Assembly (NCBI GenBank): GCA_947476855.1
Contig: CANJSR010000049.1
Coordinates: 1-16,230, forward strand
Direction: 5' to 3'
Origin: Acetobacteraceae bacterium
GTDB lineage: Bacteria > Pseudomonadota > Alphaproteobacteria > Acetobacterales > Acetobacteraceae
DNA: 16,230 bases
Positions within the stretch are counted from its first letter, which is position 1. Each line of letters starts with the position of its first letter. This document shows, in pieces, positions 2,250 to 6,091 of the stretch. The notes under the pieces were generated by a model that was given only the letters and a program-made list of their open reading frames with translations, did not search any database and had not been told where the DNA came from. The position numbers and the translations under genes are program-made.

Positions 2250-2723
2250 ATGATCCAGTTGGATATCAACGGCAAGACGCACCAGGTCGACGCCACCCCC
2301 GACACCCCGCTGCTCTGGGTCATCCGGGAATGGCTCAACATGACCGGCACCAAATACGGCTGCGGCGTCGCCCAATGCGGCGCCTGCACCGTCCTGATCG
2401 ACGGCGTCGCCGTCCGGTCCTGCGCCATGCCCGCCAGCGGCGTCGGCGCCGGCAAGATCACGACGATCGAGGGTCTGTCGCCCGACGGCCTTTCCCACCC
2501 CGTCCAGGTCGCCTGGCTGCAGCATGAAGTCCCGCAATGCGGCTACTGCCAGTCCGGCCAGATCCTCGCCGCCGTCTCCCTGCTCAAGGACAAGCCCAAG
2601 CCCACGGATGCCGACATCGCCGAGGCGATGACCAACATCTGCCGCTGCGGCACCTACCAGCGCGTCAAGGCCGCGATCCACACCGCCGCCGCCCTGACCC
2701 AGCCCACCAACGGCAAGGCATAG
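2250..2723 (+). CDS. (2Fe-2S)-binding subunit of a molybdenum hydroxylase (isoquinoline 1-oxidoreductase alpha-like)
   Basis: A 157-residue iron-sulfur subunit with the two clusters of the xanthine oxidase family. The plant-ferredoxin-type cluster uses C38, C43, C46 and C58 ([12 protein letters not shown]...SC). The second, four-helix-bundle cluster uses C97, C100, C131 and C133 (CGYCQSGQ...CRCGTY). It passes electrons from the molybdenum subunit encoded 12 bases downstream. It has no signal peptide, so it probably travels folded with the Tat-exported large subunit, as in related periplasmic enzymes. Start ATG 2250 fits homology and follows AGGGGAGAG at 2231-2239; in-frame ATGs upstream (for example in the context ATGATAGAAGTC) would add a non-conserved tail. 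It is the first gene of the operon. No FAD subunit is present, as in IorAB-type enzymes. Confidence 0.93.
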
Positions 2724-2735
2724 GGAGCAAGCGCC

Positions 2736-4904
2736 ATGAACCAGATCACATCCCAACACGCATCCCTGGGGCGCCGTTCCTTCCTGACCGCCAGCGCGGC
2801 CATCGGCGGCGGCCTCGCCCTCGGCATCTCGATCCCACCAGCGGCGGCCCAGGCAGCCGCCGTCGAAGTCGGCATCTGGGTAACGATCGCCCCCGACGAC
2901 ATCGCCACCGTCCGCATCGCCCGCTCGGAAATGGGGCAGGGGACGCTGACCGGCCTCGCCCAGCTTGTCGCCGATGAGCTTGATGCCGACTGGCGCTTCG
3001 TCCGCGCCGAATACGTCGCCCCCGAGGTCAACCACGCCAACAAGCGCGCCTGGGGCGACATGTCGACGGGCGGCAGCCGCGGCATCCGTGCTTCGGTCGA
3101 ATATGTCCGCAAGGGTGGCGCCGCCGCCCGCGCCATGCTGATCGAGGCCGCGGCCCAGCGCTGGGGCGTGCCCCCCGGCGAATGCACCGCCGCCATCAGC
3201 GTCATCACCCACACGCCGACCGGCAAGACCCTGCGCTACGGCGAAGTCGCGGCCGAGGCGGCAAAGCTGCCCGTGCCTGCCAACGTCACGGTCAAGACAC
3301 CAGCGCAATGGAAGCTGATCGGACGCGGCGTCAAGCGGCTCGATACAAAGGAGAAACTGTCCGGCAAGCTGACCTACGCGATCGACGTGGTCCTGCCCGA
3401 CATGTTGAACGCCTCCATCGCGCAATGCCCGGTCTTCGGCGGCAAGCTGAAATCCTTTGACGCCGACAAGATCAAGGGAATGCCGGGCGTGCGCCACGTG
3501 GTCCCGGTGGGGGACGCCGCCGTCGCGGTCGTCGCCGACAAATGGTACCAGGCCAATACCGCCTTGAAAGTCCTGCCGATCGTCTGGGACGAAGGCGCCA
3601 ACGCCGCCGTCGACAGCAAGCAGATCGACCTTTTCCTCCGCGCCGGCCTCGACGCCAAGGACGCCGCCCTCGGCCAGAAGAAGGGCGATGTCGAAGCAGG
3701 CCTGAAGGGCGCGGCCAAGGTGGTTGAGGCCGTCTATGCCTCCCCATTTCAGAACCACGCCACGCTGGAACCCATGAACTGCACGGCGAAATTCGCCGAC
3801 AACAAGGTGGAAATCTGGGTCGCCAGCCAGAACGGCGACGCCAGCCTCGCCGCCGCGGCCGAGGCCGGGGGCGTGCCGCTCTCCAACGTCAAGGTGAACA
3901 AGCTGCATCTCGGCGGCGGTTTCGGCCGGCGCGGCATGCAGGACTACACCACCCAGGCGGTGCTGATCGCCAAGCAGATCCCCGGCCGCCCGATCAAGCT
4001 GATCTGGTCGCGGGAGGAGGACATGCAGCAGGGTCGCTATCGTCCGATCACCCAGGCCAAGCTGAAGGCCGGGCTCGACAAGGACGGCAACCTGACCAGC
4101 CTGCACGCTCGCATCTCCGGTCAGTCGATCCTGGCGCAGGTTGCCCCCGCTCGCATGACGAACGGCATCGACACGCTCGCCTTCCAGGGCTGGCTCGCCG
4201 ATGAGTTCGGCTACATGGGCATCCCCAACCTGCTGATCGACATGGCGATCCGCAACACCCATGTCCCGGTCGGCTTCTGGCGCGGCGTCAACCACAACCA
4301 GAACGCCGTCTACATGGAGTGCTTCATTGACGAAATCGCGGCCGCCGCCGGCAAGGACCCGCTGGATTTCCGCCGTACGCTGCTCGCCAAAAGCCCCCGC
4401 CATCTGGCCGTGCTGAACGCCGCCGCCGAACGCGCCGACTGGGGCAGCCCGCTGCCAGCCGGCGTCTTCCGGGGCATCAGCCAGAACTGCGGCTTCGGCG
4501 CCTATACCGCGGCGGTGGCCGAGGTCTCGGTGTCGAAGAAGGGCGAACTCACCGTCCACCGCATCGTCGCGTCGACCGACTGCGGCTATGCGGTCAACCC
4601 CGACCAGATCGCGGCCCAGGTGGAGGGCAGCTTCGTCTACGGCCTGTCCGCGCTGTTCAGCAGCGAGATCACGATCGACAAGGGCCGCGTCGTGCAGAGC
4701 AACTTCGACAACTATGAGGTGATGCGCCTGGCCCAGATGCCGAAGGTGGAGACGGTGCTGGTCCCCTCGGGTGGCTTCTGGGGCGGGGTCGGTGAACCCA
4801 CCATCGCGGTGGCTGCGCCGGCGGTGCTGAACGCGATCTTCGCCGCCACGGGCAAGCGCGTCCGCTCCCTGCCGCTGACGCATCACGACCTCAGCCACAC
4901 CTGA
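2736..4904 (+). CDS. Tat-exported molybdopterin-binding subunit, xanthine dehydrogenase family (isoquinoline 1-oxidoreductase beta-like)
   Basis: A 722-residue catalytic subunit of the aldehyde oxidase/xanthine dehydrogenase superfamily, close in layout and length to IorB and to membrane-linked aldehyde dehydrogenases. A twin-arginine signal (GRRSFLTAS, R13-R14) with a hydrophobic stretch ends near residue 40 (AAAQA), so the enzyme works in the periplasm. Cofactor motifs are GGGFGRR (393-399), WRGVNHNQNAVYMECF, and GVGEPT with the presumed catalytic base E687, which marks it as probably active. The substrate is unknown: N-heterocycles and aldehydes are oxidised by family members. It sits between its Fe-S subunit and a cytochrome c gene (2 bases apart), which suggests electrons go to the respiratory chain rather than NAD. 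The following SoxY/SoxZ genes suggest a carrier-bound substrate, which is my inference. Confidence 0.93.
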   Translation: MNQITSQHASLGRRSFLTASAAIGGGLALGISIPPAAAQAAAVEVGIWVTIAPDDIATVRIARSEMGQGTLTGLAQLVADELDADWRFVRAEYVAPEVNHANKRAWGDMSTGGSRGIRASVEYVRKGGAAARAMLIEAAAQRWGVPPGECTAAISVITHTPTGKTLRYGEVAAEAAKLPVPANVTVKTPAQWKLIGRGVKRLDTKEKLSGKLTYAIDVVLPDMLNASIAQCPVFGGKLKSFDADKIKGMPGVRHVVPVGDAAVAVVADKWYQANTALKVLPIVWDEGANAAVDSKQIDLFLRAGLDAKDAALGQKKGDVEAGLKGAAKVVEAVYASPFQNHATLEPMNCTAKFADNKVEIWVASQNGDASLAAAAEAGGVPLSNVKVNKLHLGGGFGRRGMQDYTTQAVLIAKQIPGRPIKLIWSREEDMQQGRYRPITQAKLKAGLDKDGNLTSLHARISGQSILAQVAPARMTNGIDTLAFQGWLADEFGYMGIPNLLIDMAIRNTHVPVGFWRGVNHNQNAVYMECFIDEIAAAAGKDPLDFRRTLLAKSPRHLAVLNAAAERADWGSPLPAGVFRGISQNCGFGAYTAAVAEVSVSKKGELTVHRIVASTDCGYAVNPDQIAAQVEGSFVYGLSALFSSEITIDKGRVVQSNFDNYEVMRLAQMPKVETVLVPSGGFWGGVGEPTIAVAAPAVLNAIFAATGKRVRSLPLTHHDLSHT

Positions 4905-4906
4905 GC

Positions 4907-5323
4907 ATGGGATGGGGGAGGGTGGTGGCGCTGCTGCTGGCCCCAATCGCGATCGGGGTGGCGTCAGGCGCCGAACACGCCCCGCTGACGGCCACGCCCG
5001 GTGATCCAGAGGCCGGGCGACGGATCGTGGCCGACCGCGCTTTGTCCGCCTGCCTGCTGTGCCACGCCGGCCCGTTCCCCGCGCCGCATCTGCAGGGCGG
5101 GATCGGGCCGCCGCTGGAGAGTGTGGGCGATCGCCTCACGCCCGGGGAAATCCGGTTGCGTCTGGTCGATCCCCGCCGGGTCAACCCCGACACCGTGATG
5201 CCCGCCTATTTCGTGACGGAGGGCCTGCACCGCGTCGGCCCCGCCTGGGTGGGAAAGCCGATCCTGACAGGCCAGCAGATCGAGGATGTTGTCGCCTTTC
5301 TCACCACGCTGAGGACACCATGA
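4907..5323 (+). CDS. soxX: SoxX-like periplasmic mono-haem cytochrome c
   Basis: A 138-residue cytochrome c with an N-terminal signal peptide (MGWGRVVALLLAPIAIG, likely cut after ASG near residue 21). It has one haem-binding motif, C49-L-L-C52-H53, and a probable axial ligand M98 in the VMPAYF segment. The order CxxCH, then GGIGPPL, then the MPAYF loop and the C-terminal helix (ILTGQQIEDVVAFLTTLR) fits the SoxX family. In Sox systems SoxX pairs with SoxA to load thiosulfate on SoxY, but no soxA is nearby, so here it may simply accept electrons from the molybdenum enzyme. It begins 2 bases after the large-subunit stop and overlaps the next gene by 4 bases (ATGA). The local ribosome site is weak, so coupling is likely. 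It could be named a generic class I cytochrome c instead. Confidence 0.87.
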   Translation: MGWGRVVALLLAPIAIGVASGAEHAPLTATPGDPEAGRRIVADRALSACLLCHAGPFPAPHLQGGIGPPLESVGDRLTPGEIRLRLVDPRRVNPDTVMPAYFVTEGLHRVGPAWVGKPILTGQQIEDVVAFLTTLRTP

Positions 5324-5751
5324 CCACGCTCCCCCGCCGCCTGGTGCTGACCGCCGCCGCCGCGACCGTGCTGCTGCCGGCCGCCACCCAGGCCAACCCC
5401 GACCGCGTGACTGCCTTGATCCGGGACTTCGTAGGCGGTGCCCCACTGGCGGAGGGGCGGATCAAGCTCGACCTGCCGGTGCTGGTCGAGAACGGCAACG
5501 CCGTCTCCATGGCCATCAGCGTCGATGCCCCCGCCGGCGCGGTGCGGGACATCGCGGTCTTCGCCGACGGCAACCCGCTGCCCGAGGTGCTGCGCCTGCG
5601 CCTTGGCCCCGCCTCCGGCCCGCCGCAGGTGGAGACCCGCATCAGGCTGGCGACCTCCCAGACCGTGACCGCGATCGCCCGCATGGCCGACGGCACCTGC
5701 TGGCGCGACCAGGTGGAGTTGCTGGTCACCCTCGCCGCCTGCATCGAATAG
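5320..5751 (+). CDS. SoxY-related carrier protein with AACIE C-terminal arm
   Basis: A 143-residue SoxY paralogue. SoxY is the periplasmic protein that carries sulfur intermediates on a cysteine at the end of a flexible C-terminal arm, normally GGCGG. Here the protein ends in LVTLAACIE, so the cysteine (C141) keeps its third-from-last place while the flanking glycines are replaced. I recall an NCBI family named for exactly this AACIE arm, so this appears to be a recognised paralogue class of unknown function. The N terminus has a twin-arginine-like signal (LPRRLVLTAAAATVLL), as in true SoxY. A second cysteine lies in the GTCWRD segment. Start ATG 5320 overlaps the upstream stop in ATGA. SoxZ follows after 10 bases. 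The carried group may not be sulfane sulfur. Confidence 0.92.
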   Translation: MTTLPRRLVLTAAAATVLLPAATQANPDRVTALIRDFVGGAPLAEGRIKLDLPVLVENGNAVSMAISVDAPAGAVRDIAVFADGNPLPEVLRLRLGPASGPPQVETRIRLATSQTVTAIARMADGTCWRDQVELLVTLAACIE

Positions 5752-5761
5752 GGAGGCACGC

Positions 5762-6091
5762 ATGGTCCGCGTCCTGATCACCGCGCCCAGGCAGGTGAAG
5801 CCAGACGAGCCCTTCACGGTGAAACTGCTGATCGGGCATCCGATGGAAAGCGGCCAGCGGCGGGACACGCTGGGGCAGGCGATCCCGCGGGAGATCATCC
5901 ACGACCTGGTCTGCACCCTGGCGGGGGAGGAGGTGCTGCGTGCCACCCTCTACCCCGCGATCGCCGCCAACCCCTTCCTCTCCTTCACCGCGGTGGCTCG
6001 GCGGAGCGGCGACCTGGTCATCCGCTTCACCGACGACCGCGGCGTGACGCAGACCGAGGCGGTGCCGATCCTGGTGGAGCCCCGAGCCTAG
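5762..6091 (+). CDS. soxZ: SoxZ, carrier complex partner of the SoxY-like protein
   Basis: A 109-residue SoxZ family protein, the immunoglobulin-like partner that forms the SoxYZ heterodimer. Recognisable features are the start VRVLITAPRQVKPDEPFTVKLLIGHPMESG, the central IPREIIHDLVCTLAGEEVL and the C-terminal strand with TEAVPILVE. The length matches the family. There is no signal peptide; SoxZ is normally co-exported folded with Tat-borne SoxY. The ribosome site GGGAGG lies just before the ATG. It is the last gene of the five-gene operon: only 8 bases separate its stop from the convergent hydrolase stop, and I see no terminator in that gap, so transcripts from both strands may overlap. Confidence 0.94.
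   Translation: MVRVLITAPRQVKPDEPFTVKLLIGHPMESGQRRDTLGQAIPREIIHDLVCTLAGEEVLRATLYPAIAANPFLSFTAVARRSGDLVIRFTDDRGVTQTEAVPILVEPRA

Follow-up and report, generated by a model that had tools for sequence, protein, structure and literature searches.

A stretch of 16,230 nucleotides from an Acetobacteraceae bacterium (contig CANJSR010000049.1; the whole stretch is referred to as the window) carries five tightly packed genes that encode both subunits of a molybdenum (Mo) hydroxylase, a SoxX-type cytochrome c and the two subunits of a SoxYZ-type carrier. Comparison with other genomes revealed that they correspond to an abridged version of a conserved periplasmic operon. The unit is genuine and occurs widely, and no description of a Mo hydroxylase with Sox carriers was found among open-licence PubMed Central (PMC) articles; the family of its carrier arm has already been named by NCBI (TIGR04487). 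In our estimation there is about an even chance that the operon encodes a single periplasmic pathway, conserved and different from the thiosulfate Sox cycle, in which a carrier would present its bound cargo to the Mo hydroxylase for oxidation.

The five-gene operon and its conservation

The five open reading frames (ORFs) lie head to tail on the plus strand between positions 2250 and 6091. The distances between them are 12, 2, −4 and 10 bases, in agreement with the initial annotation. Its family assignments (Fe-S, Mo, SoxX, SoxY-like and SoxZ) also agree with the Pfam and NCBIfam matches:

2250..2723, plus strand: small subunit of the molybdenum hydroxylase, IorA/AldH type, with two [2Fe-2S] clusters; 157 aa, PF00111 (Fer2) and PF01799 (Fer2_2), 8 Cys
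2736..4904, plus strand: Mo-binding subunit, xanthine-oxidase-family hydroxylase; 722 aa, MoCoBD_1 and MoCoBD_2
4907..5323, plus strand: SoxX-type mono-haem cytochrome c; 138 aa, single CxxCH (residues 49-53), TIGR04485 at 68.4 bits (above the cut-off of 61)
5320..5751, plus strand: SoxY-type carrier subunit with an AACIE arm; 143 aa, PF13501, C-terminal AACIE
5762..6091, plus strand: SoxZ-type carrier subunit; 109 aa, TIGR04490 at 81.5 bits (above the cut-off of 76), PF08770

The Mo subunit has GGGFGRR at residue 393, the invariant R516 and a catalytic-type Glu687 (GxGEP). Judged by sequence, this subunit and the separate Fe-S subunit constitute an FAD-less periplasmic Mo hydroxylase of the IorAB/AldH type, the activity being predicted; a Pfam scan of the nine window proteins, the five operon proteins included, revealed no FAD-binding subunit. 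Twin-arginine (RR) leaders, read by eye, are present on the Mo subunit and on SoxY, and the parts of the operon should therefore meet in the periplasm. No signal peptide was seen, again by eye, on the Fe-S subunit. Queries for SoxA, SoxB, SoxC, FccA and FccB (tblastn, one query each) gave no match in the window better than E 0.3. The earlier statement that soxA, soxB and soxCD are out of view thus holds within the window for SoxA, SoxB and SoxC (SoxD was not searched), but the absence of soxA is only local.

Conservation of the operon was analysed in three collections of genomes. A TIGR04487 profile search of 289 genomes of the class (class sample) gave matches in 69 of them, at 87 places; the surroundings were studied for the best 40 of the 87 and for 11 more. 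In the phylum sample of 398 genomes, an AAC-type SoxY was accepted at E up to 1e-42 and a Mo gene at E up to 1e-180; two genomes with an AAC-type SoxY (hereafter AAC genomes) in this sample, G001 and G184, belong to the class sample too. Scoring of candidate Mo places was limited to the best three per genome in the class sample and to the best two in the phylum sample. The third collection (named loci) comprises the best 80 of at least 559 confirmed SoxY matches in named genomes. Since five of these loci (L070, L071, L107, L120 and L140) are on the same contigs as those of G015, G148, G299, G061 and G187, the 80 named loci and the loci under genome handles are not fully independent.

According to the C-terminal motif, the best 40 SoxY places of the class sample fall into 24 AAC-type loci (including a few GAC, SAC and PAC) and 16 GGC-type loci. 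A Mo gene adjoins 20 of the 24 AAC-type loci and none of the 16 GGC-type ones (Fisher p = 1.5e-7, kinship uncorrected), whereas SoxB adjoins no AAC-type locus and 12 of the 16 GGC-type loci. Two of the four AAC-type exceptions (L005 and L034) are on stretches that stop at contig edges. The other two have no Mo gene in about 2 kb (L053, genome G128) or about 7 kb (L044, genome G092) of upstream sequence, and their genomes carry Mo genes on other contigs (G128) or on another contig (G092). A Mo relative is present somewhere in all 24 AAC genomes of this sample, being split or partial in G012, G123 and G148; at L050:10179-12256 (G012, contig C53) it is divided over two ORFs, through either a real break or an assembly error.

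The named loci and the phylum sample gave a consistent picture. Of the named loci, 60 have 5.6 kb or more of upstream sequence, and at every one of these a Mo gene occurs on the same strand within 6.5 kb, joined by the Fe-S gene in 59 and by FccB in 55. SoxA was found in 74 of the 75 loci with at least 1.5 kb downstream and SoxX in 78 of the 80, while SoxB and SoxC were found at none of the 80 (tblastn, one query each). In the phylum sample, the Mo gene is on the same contig and strand in 20/20 genomes with an AAC-type SoxY. This linkage, 60/60 together with 20/20, rules out a chance neighbourhood. In the nearest genome compared (G001, 64% complete) the five genes recur at 94-99% identity to those of the window. 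With the linkage recurring in more than 100 loci, G001 among them, the gene order is not unique to the window's genome. The named loci include Bradyrhizobium, Microvirga, Reyranella, Rhodoplanes, Tardiphaga, Enhydrobacter and metagenome-assembled genomes labelled Candidatus Rokuibacteriota; the operon also occurs outside the class.

The full operon, the carrier arm and the Mo enzyme

Clustering of ORFs and family scans revealed the usual order FeS-Mo-(fccA-fccB)-soxX-soxY-soxZ-soxA, in which the fccA-like gene encodes a cytochrome and the FccB-like product is a flavoprotein with FCSD domains. All three SoxA proteins scored with TIGR04484 (cut-off 110) pass it, at 197-219 bits. The order varies somewhat: soxX follows soxA in L050 and FccB follows soxA in L046. 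In the genus of the window, SoxA comes after SoxZ in all ten relatives examined. Eight of these (L151 and L153-L159) reach the Mo gene, with FccB in between in every case except L158, while L150 and L152 are cut off upstream. The operons of the window and of G001 have neither fccAB nor soxA, and in G001 soxA is on contig C135 and no FccB match was found. Thus, soxA is the part displaced in the window's lineage, where it is probably supplied from elsewhere. FccB, found in 55/60 named loci and in 13 of the 24 class-sample loci, points to fccAB as an accessory part of the operon. The view that the five genes work as one pathway, put forward in the initial annotation, is therefore strongly supported by conserved synteny as far as a functional unit is concerned, but the five genes make an incomplete set, to which soxA and the flavocytochrome c pair normally belong too.

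Additional Mo genes were observed in some of these loci. A distant FeS-Mo pair, its Mo protein 22-28% identical to that of the window, directly follows soxA in two same-genus loci (L157:6429-8227 and L159:6900-8585) and in L168:62-2682 (G201), so that more than one kind of Mo hydroxylase may be encoded in some operons. Tandem FeS-Mo or Mo copies are present upstream of the Sox genes in L165:9987-15682, L131:3-7900 and L100:2830-7900.

The window SoxY has TIGR04487 ('SoxY-related AACIE arm protein') as its best NCBIfam match, at 155.4 bits and hence under the cut-off of 172, as is the SoxY of G001 (153.9 bits). A member over the cut-off occurs in 15/289 and 14/398 genomes. The arm is AACIE rather than of the GGCGG type, and the TIGR04488 score (89.1 bits) is below the cut-off of 125. 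The arm Cys141, encoded at 5740-5742, does not vary among the 25 rows of alignment A1, and the pattern [AGP]AC-x-E is present in 79 of the 80 named loci. The acidic residue two positions past the arm Cys stands for the last glycine of GGCGG; some AAC members of the class sample end in D or have no acid. The window carrier is not of the fused TIGR04557 type, as SoxY and SoxZ are separate genes scoring 62.2 and 46.3 bits against a cut-off of 140.

The second CxxCH motif of SoxA (C161, C164 and H165 in the numbering of the G001 fragment) and Cys206 are present in 111/111 rows of an alignment that includes duplicate genomes as well as L160 and L163, whose soxA does not adjoin soxYZ; both features are also found in 10/10 rows from GGC loci. 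Given this full conservation, SoxAX has probably retained its known function of oxidative S-S coupling.

SoxY-type carriers were also found in other settings. SoxYZ with the arm QGGCLS or GGCIT is located beside FccB in L161:9471-11765, L162:8662-10630 and L173:7505-9738, with FccA in two of the three; no SoxXA, SoxB or Mo gene was found nearby, and the arrangement resembles the SAR324 case as far as it is described in the accessible text of PMC4782131. A SoxY ending in GACS occurs in the soxXYZA loci L170, L171 and L172, of which L171 and L172 have fccAB. Neither a Mo gene nor SoxB was found near these three, which represent a further arrangement devoid of SoxB.

For the Mo subunit, both sequence and fold identify the large subunit of Gluconobacter aldehyde dehydrogenase (8gy3_C) as the closest solved structure (E 2.3e-75); the AF2 model (pLDDT 86.8) superimposes on it with TM 0.84 at 30% identity. 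R516 and Glu687 are invariant in 26/26 rows of alignment A2. We identified 32 positions that are conserved among the Sox-linked proteins (41 rows) but differ in the majority of the unlinked ones (23 rows). Eight of them (517, 519, 521, 682, 689, 690, 692 and 693) are within seven residues of R516 or E687 (a raw count), a region that we take, from xanthine oxidase, to belong to the substrate pocket.

Phylogenetic analysis placed the Mo proteins of AAC operons in one supported clade in two trees, the first built from 81 of 126 Mo proteins and the second from 59 rows with phylum-sample rows added. No row of the unlinked group falls inside this clade in the first tree. The idea that the clade is strictly Sox-linked was dropped, as the second tree put L205-L209 inside it. 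Four of these (L205, L207, L208 and L209) are on long branches, while L206, a second copy in G592, is on a shorter one. Variant SoxYs ending in GAC or SGC, with a longer tail in L165, are tied to Mo enzymes in other arrangements (L164-L168 and L181). Only the Mo enzyme of L164 is inside the clade; those of L165, L166, L167, L168 and L181 are outside. Such repeated pairing of Mo enzymes with SoxY variants argues for a functional tie.

Outside the operon, conserved flanking genes offered no usable clue to the substrate in 106 sequences: the clusters found there are ABC-transporter ATPases (cluster c7) and groups present in at most 13 of the 106. In the window itself, HEPN and nucleotidyltransferase ORFs on the minus strand (1388-2106), possibly a toxin-antitoxin-like pair, are directly upstream of the operon, and a convergent ORF for an alpha/beta hydrolase is downstream.

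The proposed pathway and its alternatives

The linkage, the AAC arm Cys, the SoxA motifs, the Mo active-site residues and the lack of SoxB beside the operon are all read directly from the sequences; the identity of the cargo and its oxidation by the Mo enzyme while bound are what we infer from them. In the pathway that we propose, SoxXA would oxidatively couple a reduced sulfur compound, most likely a thiol, to the SoxY arm Cys through an S-S bond. The loaded arm would then enter the Mo hydroxylase, where the cargo would be oxidised at carbon with water-derived oxygen, and a c-type cytochrome, which might be SoxX, would receive the electrons by way of the two Fe-S clusters. FccAB, where present, might oxidise the leftover sulfide or persulfide. 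A Mo enzyme taking the place of SoxCD and acting on cargo of the SoxY arm, as the initial annotation suggested, fits these observations. Since xanthine-oxidase-family chemistry acts at carbon, an organic thiol fits better as the cargo than sulfane sulfur. Substrates of the family given in the accessible part of PMC3877041 are aldehydes and heterocyclic compounds. We tentatively consider a more specific organosulfur version possible, in which SoxXA would form a mixed disulfide on the AAC arm, a carbon of the bound cargo would be hydroxylated by the Mo enzyme, the carbon portion would depart as an aldehyde or acid, and the persulfide left behind would be oxidised by flavocytochrome c.

SoxB scored over the cut-off in 4/24 class-sample, 1/10 same-genus and 15/18 further phylum-sample AAC genomes (20/52 in total), never on the operon-bearing stretch. 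It was not found over the cut-off in the other 32/52, some of which are incomplete. Among class-sample AAC genomes with a completeness of 90% or more and a contamination of 5% or less, 14/16 are without SoxB; none was found in G001 at its 64% completeness. SoxC is over the cut-off in the same 4/24 AAC genomes as SoxB, not adjoining the operon; in G001 its match stays below the cut-off. The absence of SoxB from many operon genomes suggests that the pathway there does not need it. As to whether a complete sox cluster elsewhere might serve SoxYZ, this is rejected in the window's genus, where 9/10 genomes have no SoxB over the cut-off, but not for families f172 and f195, whose AAC genomes have SoxB elsewhere in 14/14 cases.

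Several observations weigh against the proposed pathway. SoxB might act in trans in the 20 genomes that have it elsewhere. Nor did the searches yield a hydrolase that would release the cargo: the SoxH-like hydrolase (TIGR04559), tried as the missing release enzyme and rejected, was over the cut-off in 1 of 25 genomes (the 24 AAC genomes and G067), with weaker matches in seven more. The flavocytochrome c pair is not universal, the AAC SoxY is patchy within the window's genus (11/33 genomes), and L205-L209, inside the Sox-linked clade of the second tree, have no Sox genes within their 14-15 kb. Finally, the complete genome G067 keeps FeS-Mo-soxX-soxA (L163:7867-11916; C1:2347000-2366000), while SoxY (TIGR04487), SoxZ (TIGR04490) and FccB gave no match in it; this is a natural loss of SoxYZ inside the operon. 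At the thresholds of the phylum sample, G490, G500 and G598 likewise have the Mo gene without SoxY, and G592 and G673 carry a second Mo copy that is unlinked.

The loss of SoxYZ in G067 speaks for a different explanation, namely, that the Mo enzyme and the Sox proteins share electron transfer and perform separate chemistry. The Mo enzyme would oxidise a free aldehyde or N-heterocycle using SoxX or SoxXA as its cytochrome, and SoxYZ would never carry its substrate. The closest solved relative being the 30% identical Gluconobacter membrane aldehyde dehydrogenase, which hands electrons to a cytochrome subunit, agrees with this, as does the position of the window soxX only 2 bases after the Mo gene. 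We nevertheless regard it as unlikely, because it leaves unexplained why the Mo clade is tied to one SoxY arm type and to soxA rather than to any cytochrome c, and why Mo enzymes pair with SoxY in other arrangements as well.

The same kinship with aldehyde dehydrogenases among solved structures could mean that the carrier holds an aldehyde by its thiol. Here the SoxY Cys would form a hemithioacetal with an aldehyde such as formaldehyde. The Mo enzyme would convert this adduct to a thioester, which would then be hydrolysed, and the sulfur would stay on the carrier. In other bacteria, SoxYZ-like carriers are neighbours of a SoxH hydrolase and of PQQ dehydrogenases for alcohol or methanol, according to the accessible parts of PMC12997753 and PMC11237559. 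However, neither SoxA, with its fully conserved haem motifs and Cys, nor FccAB would have a role, and the TIGR04559 hydrolase is over the cut-off in just 1 of the 25 genomes; we consider this option improbable.

The weakest option, which we consider very improbable, is a SoxCD analogue in inorganic sulfur oxidation, in which the Mo enzyme would act on arm-bound sulfane sulfur and sulfate would be released by SoxB or a different hydrolase: the loading enzyme SoxXA, the carrier and the genomes with SoxB elsewhere agree with it, but there would be no known release step in the 32 genomes where SoxB was not found, the arm is not GGCGG and the chemistry of the enzyme family is at carbon.

Relation to known systems

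If the carrier-based pathway proposed here is correct, it would extend the range of both partners, Sox-type carriers by a further substrate class and molybdenum hydroxylases by a substrate of a new kind. Its organosulfur version, if true, would further imply that a Mo hydroxylase can act on a substrate tethered to a protein and that a Sox-type cycle can run without SoxB and SoxCD. The operon is carried by culturable genera, including Bradyrhizobium, Microvirga and Reyranella. The matter also has consequences for annotation. TIGR04487-type SoxY matches with a source name are mostly titled 'sulfur-oxidizing protein SoxY' or 'thiosulfate oxidation carrier protein SoxY', and genomes with the operon may therefore be read as those of thiosulfate oxidisers, though many are without SoxB.

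Earlier studies touch on parts of this picture. The accessible text of PMC11237559 ties SoxY variants to alcohol, formate and organosulfur genes; sequences without GGC were removed in that survey, and the AAC branch was therefore left out there. A SoxYZ-like carrier in the ped cluster is described in PMC12997753, as far as its accessible portion goes. Split sox clusters, with some genes Bradyrhizobium-like and with sulfur oxidation unconfirmed, appear for Polynucleobacter in the available part of PMC3308952. According to the part of PMC5336275 that is accessible, no proposed Sox reaction has been directly demonstrated.

Among described systems, TIGR04487 shares its arm motif with the window SoxY, but it is a named protein family and not a described pathway. 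FccAB-type pairs are found in Sox operons as SoxEF. In SAR324, such a pair adjoins SoxYZ without the complete Sox set; no Mo hydroxylase or SoxXA is reported beside it in the accessible text of the SAR324 study cited above, and the window itself is without fccAB. The quinoprotein-associated carriers of TIGR04557 resemble the operon in tying a SoxYZ-type carrier to a non-Sox periplasmic oxidoreductase. However, they are fused SoxYZ proteins next to PQQ dehydrogenases and a metallohydrolase, whereas here SoxY and SoxZ are separate and are accompanied by SoxXA, often FccAB, and the Mo enzyme. The Gluconobacter oxydans aldehyde dehydrogenase (PDB 8gy3) and IorAB-type enzymes have in common with the window enzyme the fold of the Mo subunit, a separate Fe-S subunit and no FAD subunit; we know of no carrier protein for them. 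Sox-linked enzymes are set apart from their unlinked relatives by the residues that follow R516 and by those around E687. The Sox system of the Paracoccus pantotrophus type (SoxXA-YZ-B-CD) shares SoxX, the SoxY family, SoxZ, the SoxA of the full operon and a Cys near the carrier C-terminus. In contrast to that system, the arm is AACIE and not GGCGG, and no SoxB or SoxCD was found in the operon, where their place is taken by a xanthine-oxidase-family Mo enzyme.

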